Shown in pieces: positions 1 through 53,430 of a stretch of 64,000 nt of DNA (the stretch's first letter is position 1; every line of letters starts with the position of its first letter). A program made the translations under genes and the position numbers. Under the pieces are notes generated by a model. It did not search any database. It saw nothing but the letters and a program-made list of their open reading frames with translations, and had not been told where the DNA came from. The stretch comes from Tabrizicola oligotrophica (lineage in GTDB: Bacteria; Pseudomonadota; Alphaproteobacteria; Rhodobacterales; Rhodobacteraceae): the NCBI RefSeq assembly GCF_011008935.1, contig NZ_JAAIVJ010000001.1, forward strand, positions 62,001 through 126,000, written 5' to 3'.

Positions 1-576
1 GAAGGCGACGAAAGCCTCGGTCGCGGCCACGGCACGATCCTCGGTCTCACGGGTGCGGCCAGCCATGTACATGCCGACCATGGCGTTCGACCAGCGCAGA
101 AGGTCGTCCGACATCTCCTCGGGCACGCCCAGAAGCCGGGCGATGATGATGACCGGCAGGCGCTGGCCGAACTGCTTCAGAAGATCGAACTCGCCGGCCG
201 GAAAGCCGTCGATCAGCGCATGGGCGAGGGCGGCGATTTCGGGCTGCAGCGCCGCGATCCGCCGCGAGGTGAAGGCGCGCAGCACCAGGGACCGCAGGCG
301 GGTGTGGCGCGGCGGCTCCAGCTCCAGCATGGAATGCGCCTCGACCGCGTAGAAGGGCGCGAGATGCTCGGGGATCGCCGGGGCCTTTTCGGGCGGCACC
401 TCGCGGCCAAAGCGGCGGTCGCGGAAAATGGCGTTCACTGCCGCCGCATTGCCGGTGCAGGTCAGGTCGTATTCGGCCCAGTGAAAGAACGGGCCTTCCT
501 TGCGGGCCTTTTCATAGAACGGATAGGGGTTCTGGACGAAGCCCGGCTCGGTCGGAGACTGGTGCAGCGTCTTCAT
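1..576 (-). CDS. Cytochrome P450, N-terminal part (cut by window edge)
   Basis: The 192 visible codons read as the N-terminal third to half of a bacterial class I cytochrome P450, a soluble haem mono-oxygenase. Visible are the start MKTLHQSPTEPGF, the NPYPFYEKARKEGP region, and the helix-C motif LEPPRHTRLRSLV with His91 and Arg93, which contact the haem propionates. The I-helix Thr, the ExxR and the haem-ligand Cys would lie outside the window, so activity and substrate cannot be judged. The ATG (574-576) overlaps the TGA of the upstream transporter gene as ATGA, so the two are probably translationally coupled. Redox partner genes are not in view. P450 family is well supported; the substrate is unknown. 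Confidence 0.85.
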   Translation of the reverse strand, partial: MKTLHQSPTEPGFVQNPYPFYEKARKEGPFFHWAEYDLTCTGNAAAVNAIFRDRRFGREVPPEKAPAIPEHLAPFYAVEAHSMLELEPPRHTRLRSLVLRAFTSRRIAALQPEIAALAHALIDGFPAGEFDLLKQFGQRLPVIIIARLLGVPEEMSDDLLRWSNAMVGMYMAGRTRETEDRAVAATEAFVAF

Positions 577-8146: not shown

Positions 8147-9232
8147 TCAGGCCAGACGAATGCGGGGGTTCAGGAAGACATAGCCGACATCGGAGATCAG
8201 CTGCGTCACGAGAACGACGAAGACGGCGACGACCGAGCAGCCCAGCAGCATCTCGATGTCGTTGTTGGTGGCGGCCTGCACCAGCGTCCAGCCGAAGCCC
8301 TTGTAGTTGAACAGGGTTTCGACAATCACCACGCCGTTCAAAAGCCAGGGAAACTGCAGCATGATGACGGTGAAGGGCGCGATCAGCGCGTTGCGCAGCG
8401 CATGTTTCAGCACCACCTGGGTAAAGCCGACGCCCTTGAGCCGCGCCGTGCGGATATATTGCGCCGTCATCACCTCGGTCATCGAGGCCCGCGTCATCCG
8501 CGCGATATAGCCGATGCCATAAAGCGCAATGGTCATGACGGGCAGGGCGAAGTTCCAGAAGGTGATGTCATCCATCGCGCTGGTGGCGGTGCCCATGAAC
8601 AGTGTCTTGCCGCTGATCCAGCCCCAGTCGGCCAGAAGCGGCGAGAGGCCGGCGGTGGCAGAAGCGAAGAGCGCGATGAAAATCACCCCCGAGACATATT
8701 CCGGCGTCGCCGTAGTGACGATGGCAAAGGTCGACAGCACCCGGTCGGTGCGCGAGCCCTCGCGCATGCCCGACAGCACGCCCAGCATGAGCGCCGTCGG
8801 TACCATCACCAGCATGACCGTCAGCATCAGCCAGCCGGTCTGGCCAAGCGAGCGGCCCAGCACCTCGCTCACCGGCTTCTTGAACACGGTGGAGCTGCCC
8901 CAGTCGCCCTGCACGAGGCCGCAATAGCGCGGCGCGGCGGCCGGATCGGCGCCCTTGGCGATGCAGCGCCCGCGCACCTCGCCATCTTCCATGGTCTTGA
9001 CCCAGCCTGGCAAGACCCCCAGCCATTGCGCATAGCGCGACAGCATCGGCGTGTCATAGCCGTTGTTGGCAATCCAGCTGACCACCTGGTCATCCGTCAT
9101 CCGCACCGAAGCTTCGGACTTTGCCAGCTTCTCGAGGTTCGGTTGCAGGTTTGTCAGGGAAAAGACGATGAAGGTCAGCGCAAAGGCGGTCAGGAACATG
9201 ACACCAAGGCGGCGAAGGATGAAAAGGAGCAT
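8147..9232 (-). CDS. Peptide-type ABC transporter permease (DppB-like)
   Basis: 361-residue inner-membrane permease. It begins MLLFILRRLGVMFLTAFALTF, the classic DppB/OppB first membrane helix, and carries the EAA loop TARLKGVGFTQVVLKHALRNALI. A periplasmic stretch containing CIAKGADPAAAPRYCGLVQGDWG holds a Cys pair that could form a disulfide. It is second in the unit binding protein - DppB - DppC - fused ATPase, and is preceded by a terminator hairpin that probably lowers its expression relative to the binding protein. Confidence 0.92.
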   Translation of the reverse strand: MLLFILRRLGVMFLTAFALTFIVFSLTNLQPNLEKLAKSEASVRMTDDQVVSWIANNGYDTPMLSRYAQWLGVLPGWVKTMEDGEVRGRCIAKGADPAAAPRYCGLVQGDWGSSTVFKKPVSEVLGRSLGQTGWLMLTVMLVMVPTALMLGVLSGMREGSRTDRVLSTFAIVTTATPEYVSGVIFIALFASATAGLSPLLADWGWISGKTLFMGTATSAMDDITFWNFALPVMTIALYGIGYIARMTRASMTEVMTAQYIRTARLKGVGFTQVVLKHALRNALIAPFTVIMLQFPWLLNGVVIVETLFNYKGFGWTLVQAATNNDIEMLLGCSVVAVFVVLVTQLISDVGYVFLNPRIRLA

Positions 9233-46412: not shown

Positions 46413-46973
46413 TCAGACCCCGCGCGACAGCGCCGCCACCCCGGTCCGCGCCAGTTCGCGCAGGCCCAGGGGGCGCATCAGCTCGGCAAAGCTGTCGATC
46501 TTTTCCGGCGTGCCGGTCATCTCGAAGACAAAGCTTTCCAGCGTGCTGTCGACCACATGCGCCCGGAAGATCTCGGCCAGCCGCAAGGCCTCGATGCGGT
46601 GTTCGCCCTTGCCGGCGACCTTGAACAGCGCCAGTTCGCGCTGCACGCAGGGCCCCTCGGCGGTCAGGTCATGCACGTCATAGACCGAGACCATGCGGCC
46701 AAGCTGCGCCTCGACCTGGTCGATCACCGCCGGCGTGCCGCTCGTCACAATGGTGATGCGCGAGCGGTGCCCGGTATGGTCCACCTCGGCCACGGTCAGG
46801 CTGTCGATGTTGTAGCCGCGGGCCGAAAACAGCCCGATCACGCGGGCCAGCACGCCCGGCTCGTTCTCGACGATCACCGCCAGCGTATGGCTTTCCACCG
46901 CCTCGGAATGCGGATCGCGCAGGTCATAGGCGGAATGGCTGGTCGCGCCCTTCTTGATGTTCAGTGCGGACAT
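46413..46973 (-). CDS. ilvH: Acetolactate synthase small subunit
   Basis: Regulatory subunit giving valine feedback control to IlvB. 186 residues: ACT domain (about 28-100, SHTLAVIVENEPGVLARVIG and LFSARGYNIDSLTVAEVDH) and a C-terminal domain ending ARTGVAALSRGV. The AGAGGA ribosome site lies directly after the GATATTT motif. Confidence 0.97.
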   Translation of the reverse strand: MSALNIKKGATSHSAYDLRDPHSEAVESHTLAVIVENEPGVLARVIGLFSARGYNIDSLTVAEVDHTGHRSRITIVTSGTPAVIDQVEAQLGRMVSVYDVHDLTAEGPCVQRELALFKVAGKGEHRIEALRLAEIFRAHVVDSTLESFVFEMTGTPEKIDSFAELMRPLGLRELARTGVAALSRGV

Positions 46974-46983
46974 CTTTGGTCCT

Positions 46984-47030
46984 CTTTCATCTGTTCATAA
47001 ATATCCCGGGGGCGCGGGGGCTGGCCCCCG
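46984..47030 (-). repeat. Dispersed GATATTT motif copy 5 in the ilvB-ilvH gap
   Basis: Minus strand: hairpin CGGGGG-CCAG-CCCCCG (47015-47030), then GGGATATTT-ATG-AACAG-ATGAAAG (46984-47007), running straight into the ilvH ribosome site. Same hairpin-plus-motif layout as 6922-6969. It sits inside an operon, so it must be read through. Confidence 0.8.
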
Positions 47031-47040
47031 CTCCGCCTGA

Positions 47041-48795
47041 TTACACCAGCACCGCGCCTGCGGCCTTGATGACGCCTTGCGTCTCGGCATTGCCCAGAAG
47101 CATCTCGTTATGCGGCTTGCCCGACGGGATCATCGGGAAGCAGTTCTCGTGCTTCTCGACAAGGCAGTCGAAGATCACCGGGCCGTCATAGCGCAGCATC
47201 TCCAGAATGGCGTCGTCGAGATCCTTGGGGTCGGCGCATTTGATGCCCTTGCAGCCGAAGGCCTCGGCCAGTTTCACGAAATCGGGCAGGCTTTCGGACC
47301 AGGACGAGGAATAGCGCTCGCCATGCAGCAGTTCCTGCCACTGCCGCACCATGCCAAGCCGTTCGTTGTTCAGGATGAACTGCTTGACCGGTGCGCGGAA
47401 CTGCATCGCGGTGCCCATTTCCTGCATGTTCATCAGCCACGACGCCTCGCCGGCGACGTTGATGACCAGTGCGTCCGGATGGGCGATCTGCACCCCGATC
47501 GAGGCCGGCAGGCCATAGCCCATGGTGCCAAGCCCGCCCGAGGTCATCCAGCGGTTCGGCGCGTCAAAGCCGAGGAACTGCGCCGCCCACATCTGGTGCT
47601 GGCCAACCTCGGTGGTGATGTAGCGGTCCATGCCCTTGGTCAGCGCCTCAAGCCGCTCCAGCGCGTATTGCGGCTTGATGGTCTTGTCCGAGGGCTTGTA
47701 GGACAGGCATTTCACCGCCCGCCATTCGTTGATCTGCTTCCACCACTTCGCCAGACCGTCCTTGTTCACCTTGCGGCCGCGCGCCTTCCAGATCCGCAGC
47801 GCGTCTTCCAGCACATGGCCGACATCGCCGACGATGCCCAGATCGACGCGGATCACCTTGTTGATCGAGGAGGGGTCGATGTCGACATGCACCTTCTTCG
47901 AGCGCGGGCTGAAATCGGCGATGCGCCCGGTGATGCGGTCGTCAAAGCGCGCGCCGATGTTCAGCATCAGGTCGCAGTCGTGCATGGCAAGGTTGGCCTC
48001 GTAAAGCCCGTGCATCCCCAGCATGCCGATCCATTTGTCGCCGCTCGCCGGATAGGCGCCAAGGCCCATCAGCGTCGAGGTGATCGGAAAGCCCGTGGCC
48101 TCGACGAATTCGCGCAGGAGCTGGCTGGCCGCCACGCCCGAATTGATGACGCCGCCGCCGGTGTAGAACAGCGGCCGCTCGGCGGTTTCCAGCATCTCGA
48201 CCATGCGGGTGATGGCCTCGATGTCGCCCTTCACCCGCGGCTGGTAATGGTCCACGCGGGCCTTCGGCGCCGGGGTATACTCCGCGGTGGCGAACTGCAC
48301 ATCCTTCGGAATGTCGACCAGCACCGGGCCGGGGCGGCCCGACTTGGCGACGTGGAAGGCCTGATGAATCACTTCCGACAGCCGGGCGGTGTCCTTCACC
48401 AGCCAGTTGTGCTTGGTGCAGGGCCGGGTGATGCCCACCGTGTCGGCCTCCTGAAAGCCATCGGTGCCGATCATGAAGGTCGGAACCTGACCCGACAGCA
48501 CGACGATCGGAATGGAATCCAGCAGCGCATCGGTCAGCCCGGTGACGGCATTGGTCGCGCCGGGGCCAGAGGTCACCAGCGCCACGCCGACCTTGCCGGT
48601 CGAGCGGGCATAGCCCTCGGCCATGTGGATGGCGCCCTGTTCGTGGCGCACCAGAACGTGCCGGATGTCGTTTTGCTGGAAGATCTCGTCATAGATCGGC
48701 AGCACCGCGCCGCCCGGATAGCCGAAGACGACATCCACGCCCTGATCCTTCAGGGCCTGAACCACCATCCTCGCGCCGGTCATCGCCTTGGTCAT
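47041..48795 (-). CDS. ilvB: Acetolactate synthase large subunit
   Basis: ThDP/FAD enzyme for the first common step of valine, leucine and isoleucine synthesis. 584 residues from ATG 48793-48795 (GAGGAAAG upstream). VFGYPGGAVLPIYDE, RHEQGAIHMAEGYAR (catalytic Glu), TSGPGATNAVTGL, and the ThDP region VAGEASWLMNMQEMGTA...ILNNERLGMVRQW. The usual Asp of the GDxS motif is Glu450 here, a conservative change of a metal ligand. Controlled by the upstream leader-peptide attenuator. Confidence 0.97.
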   Translation of the reverse strand: MTKAMTGARMVVQALKDQGVDVVFGYPGGAVLPIYDEIFQQNDIRHVLVRHEQGAIHMAEGYARSTGKVGVALVTSGPGATNAVTGLTDALLDSIPIVVLSGQVPTFMIGTDGFQEADTVGITRPCTKHNWLVKDTARLSEVIHQAFHVAKSGRPGPVLVDIPKDVQFATAEYTPAPKARVDHYQPRVKGDIEAITRMVEMLETAERPLFYTGGGVINSGVAASQLLREFVEATGFPITSTLMGLGAYPASGDKWIGMLGMHGLYEANLAMHDCDLMLNIGARFDDRITGRIADFSPRSKKVHVDIDPSSINKVIRVDLGIVGDVGHVLEDALRIWKARGRKVNKDGLAKWWKQINEWRAVKCLSYKPSDKTIKPQYALERLEALTKGMDRYITTEVGQHQMWAAQFLGFDAPNRWMTSGGLGTMGYGLPASIGVQIAHPDALVINVAGEASWLMNMQEMGTAMQFRAPVKQFILNNERLGMVRQWQELLHGERYSSSWSESLPDFVKLAEAFGCKGIKCADPKDLDDAILEMLRYDGPVIFDCLVEKHENCFPMIPSGKPHNEMLLGNAETQGVIKAAGAVLV

Positions 48796-48843: not shown

Positions 48844-48877
48844 TCAACAAAAAGCCCCCGGGGGGTGATCCGGGGGC
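48844..48877 (-). terminator. Attenuator terminator of ilvBH
   Basis: Minus strand: GCCCCCGG (48877-48870) pairs with CCGGGGGC (48861-48854), loop ATCACCCC, followed by TTTTTGTTG. It lies between the leader peptide and ilvB, so it would stop transcription before the structural genes unless the antiterminator forms. Confidence 0.88.
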
Positions 48878-48919
48878 GCATGGGAGCCGTTATGGACTGT
48901 CGTTACCGACCCATGCGCC
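48875..48919 (-). promoter_or_regulatory. Antiterminator pairing of the ilv leader
   Basis: GGCGCATGGG (48919-48910), inside the last leader codons, is perfectly complementary over 10 bp to CCCATGCGCC (48884-48875). The second arm overlaps the first bases of the terminator stem, so the two structures exclude each other. A ribosome that finishes the leader would cover the first arm and allow termination; one stalled at the Leu-Val-Val-Ile-Leu codons would leave it free. Confidence 0.8.
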
Positions 48920-48950
48920 ATGTCTCCAGAATTACGACTAGTGCGCGCAT
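48903..48950 (-). CDS. ilvL: ilv operon leader peptide
   Basis: A 15-residue ORF, MRALVVILETWRMGR, with AAGGGGGCGG as ribosome site. Residues 4-8 (LVVIL) are all branched-chain amino acids, as expected for a sensor of charged tRNA-Leu, tRNA-Val and tRNA-Ile. The codons include CTA, rare in GC-rich DNA and so a likely stall point. It lies between a good promoter and a terminator/antiterminator pair ahead of ilvB. No product role; it acts by being translated. Confidence 0.88.
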   Translation of the reverse strand: MRALVVILETWRMGR

Positions 48951-48976
48951 TGCCGCCCCCTTTGCCTTCGGGCCGG

Positions 48977-49005
48977 ACCTTATGGTGCGGGGCAGGAGGC
49001 GTCAA
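48977..49005 (-). promoter_or_regulatory. Promoter of the ilvL-ilvBH unit
   Basis: Minus strand TTGACG (plus 49000-49005), 17-bp spacer, TAAGGT (48977-48982). Transcription would begin near 48970, about 20 bases before the leader ATG. Further upstream an inverted repeat TTTGCG-CAACTTT-CGCAAA (49075-49093) could be an operator. Confidence 0.6.
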
Positions 49006-50568
<1,563 letters not shown>

Positions 50569-50631: not shown

Positions 50632-50960
50632 GGCGCGGGTTGCCCCCCACCCCCCGACCCCTCCCCACGAGGGGGAGGGGAGGTGTCGGCGCGTCCGGCG
50701 AGGTGACGCGCGCCATGCGGGGGGGGCGAAGCCTCGGGACTTTCTGGGTGCGGCGCGGGTTGGCCCCCACCCCCGACCCCTCCCCACGAGGGGGAGGGGA
50801 GGTGTCGGCGCGTCCGGCGAGGTGACGCGCGCCATGCGGGGGGGGGCGGGGAAGCCTGGGAGCTTTCGGGGGGCGGCGCGGGTAGCCCCCCACCCCCGGC
50901 CCCTCCCCACGAGGGGGAGGGGAGGCGCCGGCGCGTCCGGCGAGGTGACGCGCGCCATGC
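50632..50960. repeat. Three tandem copies of a GC-rich double-hairpin repeat
   Basis: Units begin at GGCGCGGGT: 50632-50751 (120 bp), 50752-50874 (123 bp) and 50875-50960 (86 bp, truncated). Each holds CCCCTCCCC-ACGAG-GGGGAGGGG (9-bp perfect stem) and GGCGCGT...ACGCGCGCC around TCCGGCGAGGTG. The ending GACGCGCGCCATGC is identical in all three. The spacer after it (G-run then AAGCCTSGGRRCTTTC-like) varies. Repeats of this kind are scattered in many alphaproteobacterial genomes; copy spacing of 119-123 bp breaks frame, so they are not coding. Confidence 0.9.
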
Positions 50961-51040: not shown

Positions 51041-52813
51041 TTACGGGTTGACCTCCGGTGCCCCCAGTTGCGGCGCCCCCAGCTTGGGCGCCCCCGGAAT
51101 TGCCGGGGCCCCCAGTTGCGGTGCCCCGAGTTGCGGTGCCCCCAGTTGCGGCACTCCCAATTGCGGTGCGCCAAGGATCGGGGCGCCGCCCGGGTTCAAC
51201 GTGTTCAGCGTCGGCACGGTGATTTCCACTGCCGAAGCATCCACCACCGGTCCCTTGTAATGCATCACCAGCTGCGGGAAGGCGATCACCACGCCGATCA
51301 TCACCACTTGAATGACGACAAAGGGAATGGCGCCATAGTAGATCTGCCCGGTCGTCACCCCGGCGATCTGCCTGCCCGTCACCTTGTCGGTATAGGCCCC
51401 TTTCGGCGCCACGGAGCGCAGGTAGAACAGCGAGAAGCCGAAGGGCGGGTGCATGAACGAGGTCTGCATGTTGACCCCAAGGATCACCCCGAACCAGATC
51501 AGGTCGATCCCCAGCGCCATCGCCGGCGCCACCAGCAAGGGCACGATGATGAAGGCCAGCTCGAAGAAGTCGAGGAAGAAGGCCAAGAGGAACACCAGGA
51601 TCGAGACGAAGATCAGGAAGCCCGTCGCGCCCCCCGGCAGGCCCACCAGCAGGTGTTCCACCCAGACATGGCCGTTCACCCCGTAGAAGGTCAGCGAGAA
51701 CACTCGCGCGCCGATCAGGATGAACATGACGAAGGCCGACAGCCGGGTGGTCGATTCCAGCGCCTGCCGGATCACGCCCAGATTGAGCCGCCCCTTCAGC
51801 CCTGCCAGCAGAAGCGAGCCGACCGCCCCCATCGCGCCGCCCTCGGTGGGCGTGGCGATGCCAAGGAAGATGGTGCCAAGCACCAGAAAGATCAGCGCCA
51901 GCGGCGGGATCAGCACCATGATGACCTGTTGCGCCAGACGGCTCATCAGGTTCATCCCGGTGGATTTGTCAACGATCGCATAGAGATAGATAGCGCTGAT
52001 GCCCGCCGTCACCCCCATCATGTCGGCATTTTCACCGAAATGCGCAGTCAGGTAGGGGTGCAGCCCATAGGCGAGGGCGACCACGACCAGGATTGCCACC
52101 AGCAGCGACAAGACCCCATTGCCCAGCGTGCGCGCCTCCTTGGGCAGGGCCGGAACCCAGGACGGGCGGACTACCGAGACGATGAAGACATAGATCATGT
52201 AAAAGCCGGTCAGCACCAGACCGGGCAGCATCGCGCCCTTGTACATGTCGCCGACCGACCGGCCGAGCTGGTCGGCCAGCACGATCAGCACAAGGCTCGG
52301 CGGGATGATCTGCGCCAGTGTGCCAGAGGCCGCGATCACCCCCGTCGCCACCCGCCGGTCATAGCCATAGCGCAGCATGATCGGCAGCGAGATCAGCCCC
52401 ATGGCGATGACCGAGGCTGCCACCACCCCCGTCGTCGCCGCCAGCAGTGCGCCGACGATGATGACGGCATAGGCCAGCCCGCCCCGGATCGGGCCGAACA
52501 GCTGGCCCACGGTGTCCAGCAGATCCTCGGCCATGCCCGAGCGTTCCAGCACGATCCCCATGAAGGTGAAGAAGGGAATGGCAAGAAGCGTCTCGTTCGA
52601 CATCACCCCCCACAATCGCTGGGGCATGGTAAAGAGAAGCGGCCAGTCAAGCGTGATGGAGTTTTCCGAATAGGGCGCCAGCCAGACGCCGATGGCGAAG
52701 AACACCAGACCGTTGGCCGCCAGCGAAAAGGCGACCGGATATCCCAGCAGCAGAAACAGCACCAGGCTCGCGAACATGATCGGAGCCATGTTGATGGCGA
52801 TGAACTCGATCAT
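51041..52813 (-). CDS. TRAP transporter large permease (DctM family) with GAPQL-repeat tail
   Basis: 590 residues from ATG 52811-52813, which overlaps the small-subunit stop as ATGA. About 12-13 membrane helices with the family blocks GYPVAFSLAANGLVFF, LAIPFFTFMGIVLERSGMAE, GTLAQIIPPSLVLIVLAD, IATPTEGGAMGAVGSLLLAG and GVNMQTSFMHPPFGFSLFYL. The usual protein ends soon after the last helix (FPQLVMHYKG); here 48 more residues form nine GAPQL-like pentapeptides (GAPIL, GAPQL, GVPQL, GAPQL, GAPQL, GAPAIP, GAPKL, GAPQL, GAPEV). Longer than most DctM (about 430) but similar to TakM-type subunits apart from the tail. Confidence 0.92.
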   Translation of the reverse strand: MIEFIAINMAPIMFASLVLFLLLGYPVAFSLAANGLVFFAIGVWLAPYSENSITLDWPLLFTMPQRLWGVMSNETLLAIPFFTFMGIVLERSGMAEDLLDTVGQLFGPIRGGLAYAVIIVGALLAATTGVVAASVIAMGLISLPIMLRYGYDRRVATGVIAASGTLAQIIPPSLVLIVLADQLGRSVGDMYKGAMLPGLVLTGFYMIYVFIVSVVRPSWVPALPKEARTLGNGVLSLLVAILVVVALAYGLHPYLTAHFGENADMMGVTAGISAIYLYAIVDKSTGMNLMSRLAQQVIMVLIPPLALIFLVLGTIFLGIATPTEGGAMGAVGSLLLAGLKGRLNLGVIRQALESTTRLSAFVMFILIGARVFSLTFYGVNGHVWVEHLLVGLPGGATGFLIFVSILVFLLAFFLDFFELAFIIVPLLVAPAMALGIDLIWFGVILGVNMQTSFMHPPFGFSLFYLRSVAPKGAYTDKVTGRQIAGVTTGQIYYGAIPFVVIQVVMIGVVIAFPQLVMHYKGPVVDASAVEITVPTLNTLNPGGAPILGAPQLGVPQLGAPQLGAPQLGAPAIPGAPKLGAPQLGAPEVNP

Positions 52814-53430
52814 TTGCGCTCCTCCGCGCCGGTGTCTTCCTCGGCCAGTCGCGCCACTTCGGCTGCCAGCGCTGCGCCCTCCTGCTCGGCCGCCGCATGG
52901 GCCGAGACGAAGGGATGCGGGTCTTCGATCAGCCCGCGCATCACGGCGACTTTCTTGATGATCTCGGATATCGCCTGCGCCACCAGAAGGATGAAACCCG
53001 CCGCCAGCAGCGCGCGGGCCGGCCAGATGATGAGCCCGCCGGCATTGGTGGAAATCTGCCCGATCTGCCAGGCCTGCCAGGCATAGGGCACCAGCATCCA
53101 GGCCATCAGCACGGCAAAGGGCAACAGAAAGACCACATGGCCGAACAGGTCGATCCAGTGCTGCCTGCGGCGCGAGAACATGCCATAGACGATGTCGATG
53201 CGGATATGTTCGTTCTGCTTCAGCGTCATGGCCGAGGCCAGCAGGAAGGCTGCGCCGAAGAGATACCATTGCGCCTCAAGCCAGGCGTTCGACGAGGTGT
53301 TGAACAGTTTGCGCACCACGGCATTGATGGCGCTGATGATGATAGCCAGCAGAATGAGCCACATCACCGATTTGCCTATGGCTTCGCTCAGCCGGTCAAT
53401 GGCGCGCGACAGCCCGAGGGCTCCTTGCAT
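52810..53430 (-). CDS. TRAP transporter small permease (DctQ family)
   Basis: 206 residues with four membrane helices: SVMWLILLAIIISAINAVVR, LEAQWYLFGAAFLLASAMTL (family motif with ...QNEHIRIDIVYG), FGHVVFLLPFAVLMAWMLV and LIIWPARALLAAGFILLVAQ. An acidic coiled C-terminus (EQEGAALAAEVARLAEEDTG) is longer than in most DctQ. GGAGGAGA ribosome site; coupled to the large subunit. Confidence 0.93.
   Translation of the reverse strand: MQGALGLSRAIDRLSEAIGKSVMWLILLAIIISAINAVVRKLFNTSSNAWLEAQWYLFGAAFLLASAMTLKQNEHIRIDIVYGMFSRRRQHWIDLFGHVVFLLPFAVLMAWMLVPYAWQAWQIGQISTNAGGLIIWPARALLAAGFILLVAQAISEIIKKVAVMRGLIEDPHPFVSAHAAAEQEGAALAAEVARLAEEDTGAEERK

Follow-up and report, generated by a model that had tools for sequence, protein, structure and literature searches.

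A candidate branched-chain leader-peptide attenuator of ilvBH in Rhodobacterales and a similar module ahead of a Bcr/CflA-type transporter gene

In Tabrizicola oligotrophica, a short open reading frame with a run of branched-chain codons precedes the acetolactate synthase genes ilvBH on the minus strand of the window, as we call the whole stretch of 64,000 nucleotides that was analysed. This raises the question whether ilvBH expression is adjusted to the supply of branched-chain amino acids by attenuation and, if so, how the leader RNA would decide between termination and read-through. The original prediction had proposed a leader-peptide attenuator with two mutually exclusive RNA pairings. 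The attenuator is supported by the anatomy of the locus and by its conservation throughout the order; the strict exclusion of one pairing by the other is not.

Anatomy of the ilvBH leader and its distribution in Rhodobacterales

All parts that had been named are present on the minus strand, and all coordinates of the leader and of ilvBH refer to this strand. The putative promoter consists of the boxes TTGACG (49000-49005) and TAAGGT (48977-48982) with a spacer of 17 nt, and it is conserved: the pattern TTGACn-16..19-TAnnnT is kept at 95 of 117 homologous loci, with a 17-nt spacer in 82, as compared to a single occurrence in the reversed control. The purine stretch AAGGGGGCG (48954-48962) resembles a Shine-Dalgarno sequence, and the same place is purine-rich in most relatives. 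It lies 5' of the ATG (48950) of a predicted leader ORF of 15 codons, MRALVVILETWRMGR (48903-48950), that ends with the stop codon TAA (48905-48903). Within this ORF, the five consecutive codons CTA GTC GTA ATT CTG (48941-48927), a run rich in codons that are rare by comparison with ilvB, specify Leu-Val-Val-Ile-Leu. The last leader codons at the same time provide the 5' arm of a helix, P1, in which GGCGCATGGG (48919-48910) pairs perfectly over 10 bp with CCCATGCGCC (48884-48875). P1 encloses the small hairpin P2, UCG-GUAA-CGA (48909-48900), and the leader stop codon is located in the GNRA loop of P2. The intrinsic terminator (48877-48849) is made up of the arms GCCCCCGG (48877-48870) and CCGGGGGC (48861-48854) and of the TTTTT at 48853-48849; its first 3 nt are common to the 3' arm of P1. 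Downstream, NCBIfam models back the identity of ilvB (47041-48795; acetolactate synthase large subunit; NF006581, 1129 bits) and ilvH (46413-46973; small subunit; NF008864 and TIGR00119). The likely start of ilvB is the ATG at 48795, which is preceded by GAGGAAAG. The locus combines a leader ORF with codons for the end products, as judged by sequence, an intrinsic terminator, and downstream genes that make the sensed amino acids. An apparent long-range pairing between GGGGGC of the Shine-Dalgarno region and GCCCCC of the terminator arm was dropped, as it was not conserved in the leaders of relatives that were checked by eye.

The folding energy of the window leader does not differ significantly from that of shuffled sequences (z = -0.96), and the case for the element therefore rests on comparison. 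Of 295 Rhodobacterales genomes, 204 contain the exact P1 pattern, GCGCATGGG-N12..42-CCCATGCGC, in almost every case as a single copy, and the reversed control has no match. A first covariance model, built on 36 leaders, detected the element in 38 of 48 genomes that had been chosen mostly for the absence of the exact pattern, and a second model found it in 263 of 290 genomes, which represent 109 of 113 genera. At the loci examined, ilvB lies directly 3' of nearly all first copies. Both the branched-chain run and the P1 pairing are retained across the order, as is the terminator, and the sequences of P1 and P2 are nearly invariant. The loss of run or pairing in close relatives, by which the original prediction would have been refuted, is thus not observed. 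The Rhodobacterales thus gain a defined and nearly order-wide control element for ilvBH. A search of the window genome for a second copy of the element found none. Weak model matches (L130-L138, L194-L203) were discarded: those that were checked are terminators or chance hits with neither ilvB nor a major facilitator superfamily (MFS) gene on their 3' side.

The genomes without the element come mostly from one large genus of the family, g7, and no recognisable attenuator precedes ilvB in the four g7 genomes inspected (L215, L216, L218, L219) or in Paracoccus limosus (L005). Since all of these have a leaderless ilvB, g7 is probably Paracoccus, and control by attenuation would be dispensable in this genus. 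The other genera without a hit mostly retain diverged leaders with runs of Leu, Ile and Val.

Selection on the leader and its relatives in other orders

Both the peptide and the RNA bear marks of selection. First, a run of at least four branched-chain residues is found in 87 of 95 leaders of relatives. Second, this run is encoded in an unusual way: CTA accounts for 29% in leaders vs 1.6% in ilvB (an 18-fold enrichment) and GTA for 45% vs 5% (9-fold), whereas CTG, at 63% in ilvB, drops to 4% in leaders. Third, changes in P1 are largely compensated even though they alter the leader peptide, which indicates that the RNA itself is under selection. In L141, the compensated change GCACATGGG/CCCATGTGC turns an Arg codon into a His codon; L157 has GGA/TCC and L158 GGT/ACC, and in L167, with GTG/CAC in P1, the base that pairs with the shared one in the terminator has changed as well. 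Among 24 distinct pairs of P1 arms, 202 of 216 positions pair, as compared to a mean of 196 and a maximum of 202 for shuffled pairings, a test that is weak by itself because P1 varies so little. In P2, all three pairs have changed on both sides across the relatives with pairing kept.

The same architecture, with a different P1 sequence, precedes ilvB in Hyphomicrobiales and in Phenylobacterium. In orders other than Rhodobacterales, P1 comprises 7-12 bp and starts 5-22 nt, mostly 16-22 nt, before the leader stop; few shuffled sequences do as well at most loci, and the helix is not significant at L040, L045, L059 and L070. As read by eye from the loop sequences, the stop codon is in or beside the P2 loop in most of the leaders sampled. 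The distance between P1 and the terminator is short everywhere: in 93 of 101 homologues the overlap measures exactly 2 nt and in the window 3 nt, and in Hyphomicrobiales and Caulobacterales 2-8 nt lie between the two, with no nucleotide shared.

A link to known RNAs comes from Rfam. The gathering-level matches of RF02502 (Atu_C8, a "Rhizobiales sRNA") coincide exactly with the ilvB leaders of Agrobacterium (L029:2301-2420) and Mesorhizobium (L026:2298-2419), and this location suggests that the Atu_C8 RNA is probably the terminated ilvB attenuator RNA. The window leader shares with Atu_C8 the P1 pairing GCGCAUGGG/CCCAUGCGC in the last leader codons, the residues R-M-G towards the C-terminus of the leader peptide, a P2 loop that holds the stop codon and a terminator just 3' of these; in Atu_C8, however, P2 is longer and the terminator, AGGCYCC..GGGGCCU, starts about 7 nt past P1. 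At the gathering threshold, Rfam gives no match in the window leader. RF02502 aligns with it over its full length and on the same strand with 23.5 bits (E 0.008), below the threshold of 50, and we therefore regard the leader as working like Atu_C8 without filing it as a member.

Vitreschak et al. (2004, FEMS Microbiol Lett) reportedly predicted branched-chain attenuators of alphaproteobacterial ilvIH, for the same gene, the same bacterial class and reportedly the same effector as in the window. A later study lists a cis-regulatory element of Sinorhizobium ilvIH after that work (PMC2573895). For Caulobacter crescentus ilvBN, which is the same operon under the same class of control, PMC4117421 cites Tarleton 1994 for leader-mediated attenuation with tandem Ile/Val codons, with a terminator before ilvBN and ribosome pausing that prevents termination, and supports the attenuation of Tarleton, Malakooti and Ely 1994 by profiling. 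The leader of the Caulobacter relative Phenylobacterium (L061) is shorter than that of the window and has another P1 sequence, which lies 5 nt from the terminator with no overlap. Within Rhodobacterales, uORFC-8-2 in the leader of cysS (PMC8632094) is a candidate for ribosome-mediated attenuation with sensing codons in the upstream ORF; it differs from the window leader in its cysteine codons and in its target gene. Attenuators of ilv genes are thus already known in Alphaproteobacteria, in Caulobacter and in Rhizobiales, and the window element joins that class: the exact leader, which the original prediction was unable to place, can now be grouped with these.

The proposed mechanism and the role of P1

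We consider it very probable that ilvBH transcription is controlled by ribosome-mediated attenuation at this element, with charged Leu-, Val- and Ile-tRNA as the signal. Transcription would start about 20 nt 5' of the leader ATG. With an ample supply of branched-chain amino acids, the ribosome would move on to the stop codon within the loop of P2 and thereby cover P2 and the first P1 arm; P1 would not form, and the terminator would end transcription. If they are scarce, the ribosome would stall at the rare Leu, Val and Ile codons, P1 together with P2 would form before the terminator is completed and hinder completion of its stem, and the polymerase would proceed into ilvBH.

This scheme depends on how P1 acts on the terminator. 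We folded 89 leaders by partition function and masked the positions of a ribosome that has reached the stop codon, has stalled in the middle of the run or has stalled at its final codon. Once at the stop codon, a ribosome hides P2 together with the first P1 arm, and one held early in the run leaves both accessible, in keeping with attenuation. P1 and the terminator form together in these calculations. Near the foot of the terminator, a base pair has a mean probability of 0.98 at the stop, 0.75 for the mid-run stall and 0.95 for the last-codon stall; the window leader has 1.00, 0.84 and 1.00, respectively. Compared with the mid-run stall, masking of P1 by a ribosome at the stop strengthens the base of the terminator only from about 0.75 to 0.98. 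With a stall on the last codon, the base of P1 is masked and termination is not relieved in the model. RNAalifold, run with no structure supplied, predicts P1 jointly with the full terminator, and co-folding costs P1 just its outer 2 bp. For four Rhizobiales ilvB leaders, equilibrium folding with ribosome masks predicts no switch. Since the masks had only a partial effect in Rhodobacterales and left the leaders of other orders unaffected, we abandoned such folding as proof of a switch.

These results bear on the view originally put forward, a classical attenuator in which P1 is a full antiterminator and excludes the terminator. The second arm of P1 does overlap the 5' arm of the terminator as claimed, the length of the overlap is fixed in most homologues, and the concerted change of the shared base with both of its partners in L167 speaks for this view as well. 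The overlap is, however, limited to 3 nt in the window and 2 nt in most relatives, so that neither pairing rules out the whole of the other: the two helices co-fold, and the homologous leaders of Hyphomicrobiales, like those of Caulobacterales, have no shared nucleotide. A classical attenuator is a tentative reading to which we give somewhat less than an even chance. A purely steric block, in which P1 directly abuts the terminator at the RNA exit channel of the polymerase and takes no bases from it, would account for the finding that the two, which overlap by 2 nt or lie up to 8 nt apart, remain close even between orders whose P1 sequences are completely different. Yet the linker of 7 nt in Rhizobiales may exceed the reach of such an effect, and the constant 2-nt overlap in Rhodobacterales would suit base competition equally well; on its own, the steric block seems rather unlikely to us. 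P1 may well be the switch, though not by simple mutual exclusion, and the likely routes are a contest for the 2-3 nucleotides that both helices claim at the foot of the terminator stem, by the U-run, or hindrance by the packed helix. Competition at the stem base would be the conservative reading for Rhodobacterales, whereas a steric effect of a flush helix would cover all lineages. This poses a testable question: how can a helix with little or no overlap with the terminator halt termination?

It is also conceivable that the terminated leader acts mainly in trans as a small RNA, as the Rfam name of Atu_C8 implies. RF02502 coincides with the two Rhizobiales ilvB leaders named above and matches the window leader weakly along its whole length, and two studies on the Sinorhizobium trp attenuator describe a trans activity of both the attenuator RNA and the leader peptide (PMC10117765; PMC7298713). 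As a main function this would leave the conserved cis anatomy, with its rare-codon run, the terminator and the nearby ilvB or MFS gene, unexplained, and we regard it as quite improbable; a role in trans could be additional, and the simplest reading of Atu_C8 is that of an ilvB leader. That the element binds a ligand or a protein like a riboswitch, with an incidental leader ORF, can hardly be right: the near invariance of P1 and P2 in Rhodobacterales would suit it, but the run and its rare codons are conserved, and in other orders P1 has an unrelated sequence at a retained position relative to the leader stop.

A related module before a Bcr/CflA-type transporter gene

The attenuator is not confined to ilvB. 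A valine-rich leader with P1, P2 and terminator is located 13-51 nt 5' of the genes of one orthologous group of MFS transporters at 20 loci (covariance-model matches L118-L129, L173, L178, L179, L180, L193, L204, L206, L208), with leader peptides such as MNPKSVVVVVSRRCMVR and MHILIVVVGERRLDR. The strong matches of the covariance model outside Rhodobacterales, as well as the second copies inside the order, precede this group; the loci span about ten alphaproteobacterial families and include second copies in several Rhodobacteraceae. Three members of the group were scanned and belong to TIGR00710 (Bcr/CflA). Among 19 orthologues (at least 51% identity) from genomes of the class outside Rhodobacterales, 13 are preceded by the element and one more (L239) by an Atu_C8-type leader, and no leader was seen at the remaining five. 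The L239 leader, MQVSVVVGRRMGKAA, has its terminator apart from P1 as in the Rhizobiales ilvB leaders, whereas the other MFS leaders have the two flush. In the window genome, the nearest MFS homologue (C9, 40-46% identical) has no such leader.

It is thus somewhat probable, in our view, that ilvB and the gene of the Bcr/CflA-type MFS group, two separate genes of Alphaproteobacteria, are under the control of the same branched-chain attenuator module. An attenuator of this kind before an MFS transporter gene looks new, and a partial literature search found no report of branched-chain attenuation of an MFS gene. If the idea is correct, the transporter would be part of the physiology of branched-chain amino acids, chiefly valine, or it would be an efflux pump that is induced when ribosomes slow down on the leader. 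The shared module provides a functional lead for a group of transporters that is otherwise annotated only as drug efflux.

Some further features of the window are worth recording. The gap between ilvB and ilvH contains a G+C-rich inverted repeat, GCGGGGGC CA GCCCCCGC (47015-47040, minus strand). An Rfam match to RF02647, the Ruegeria cis52 sRNA, is located at 8392-8570 on the plus strand (119.5 bits). A tandem array of a G+C-rich 123-bp unit (50632-50960; 2.7 copies, 92% matches) lies beside a plus-strand ORF (49462-50568) that resembles a TRAP-type solute-binding protein. Finally, a 15-bp tandem repeat of 7.2 copies (51056-51166) encodes the C-terminal QLGAP repeat tail of a minus-strand ORF (51041-53269) that resembles a TRAP transporter large permease.
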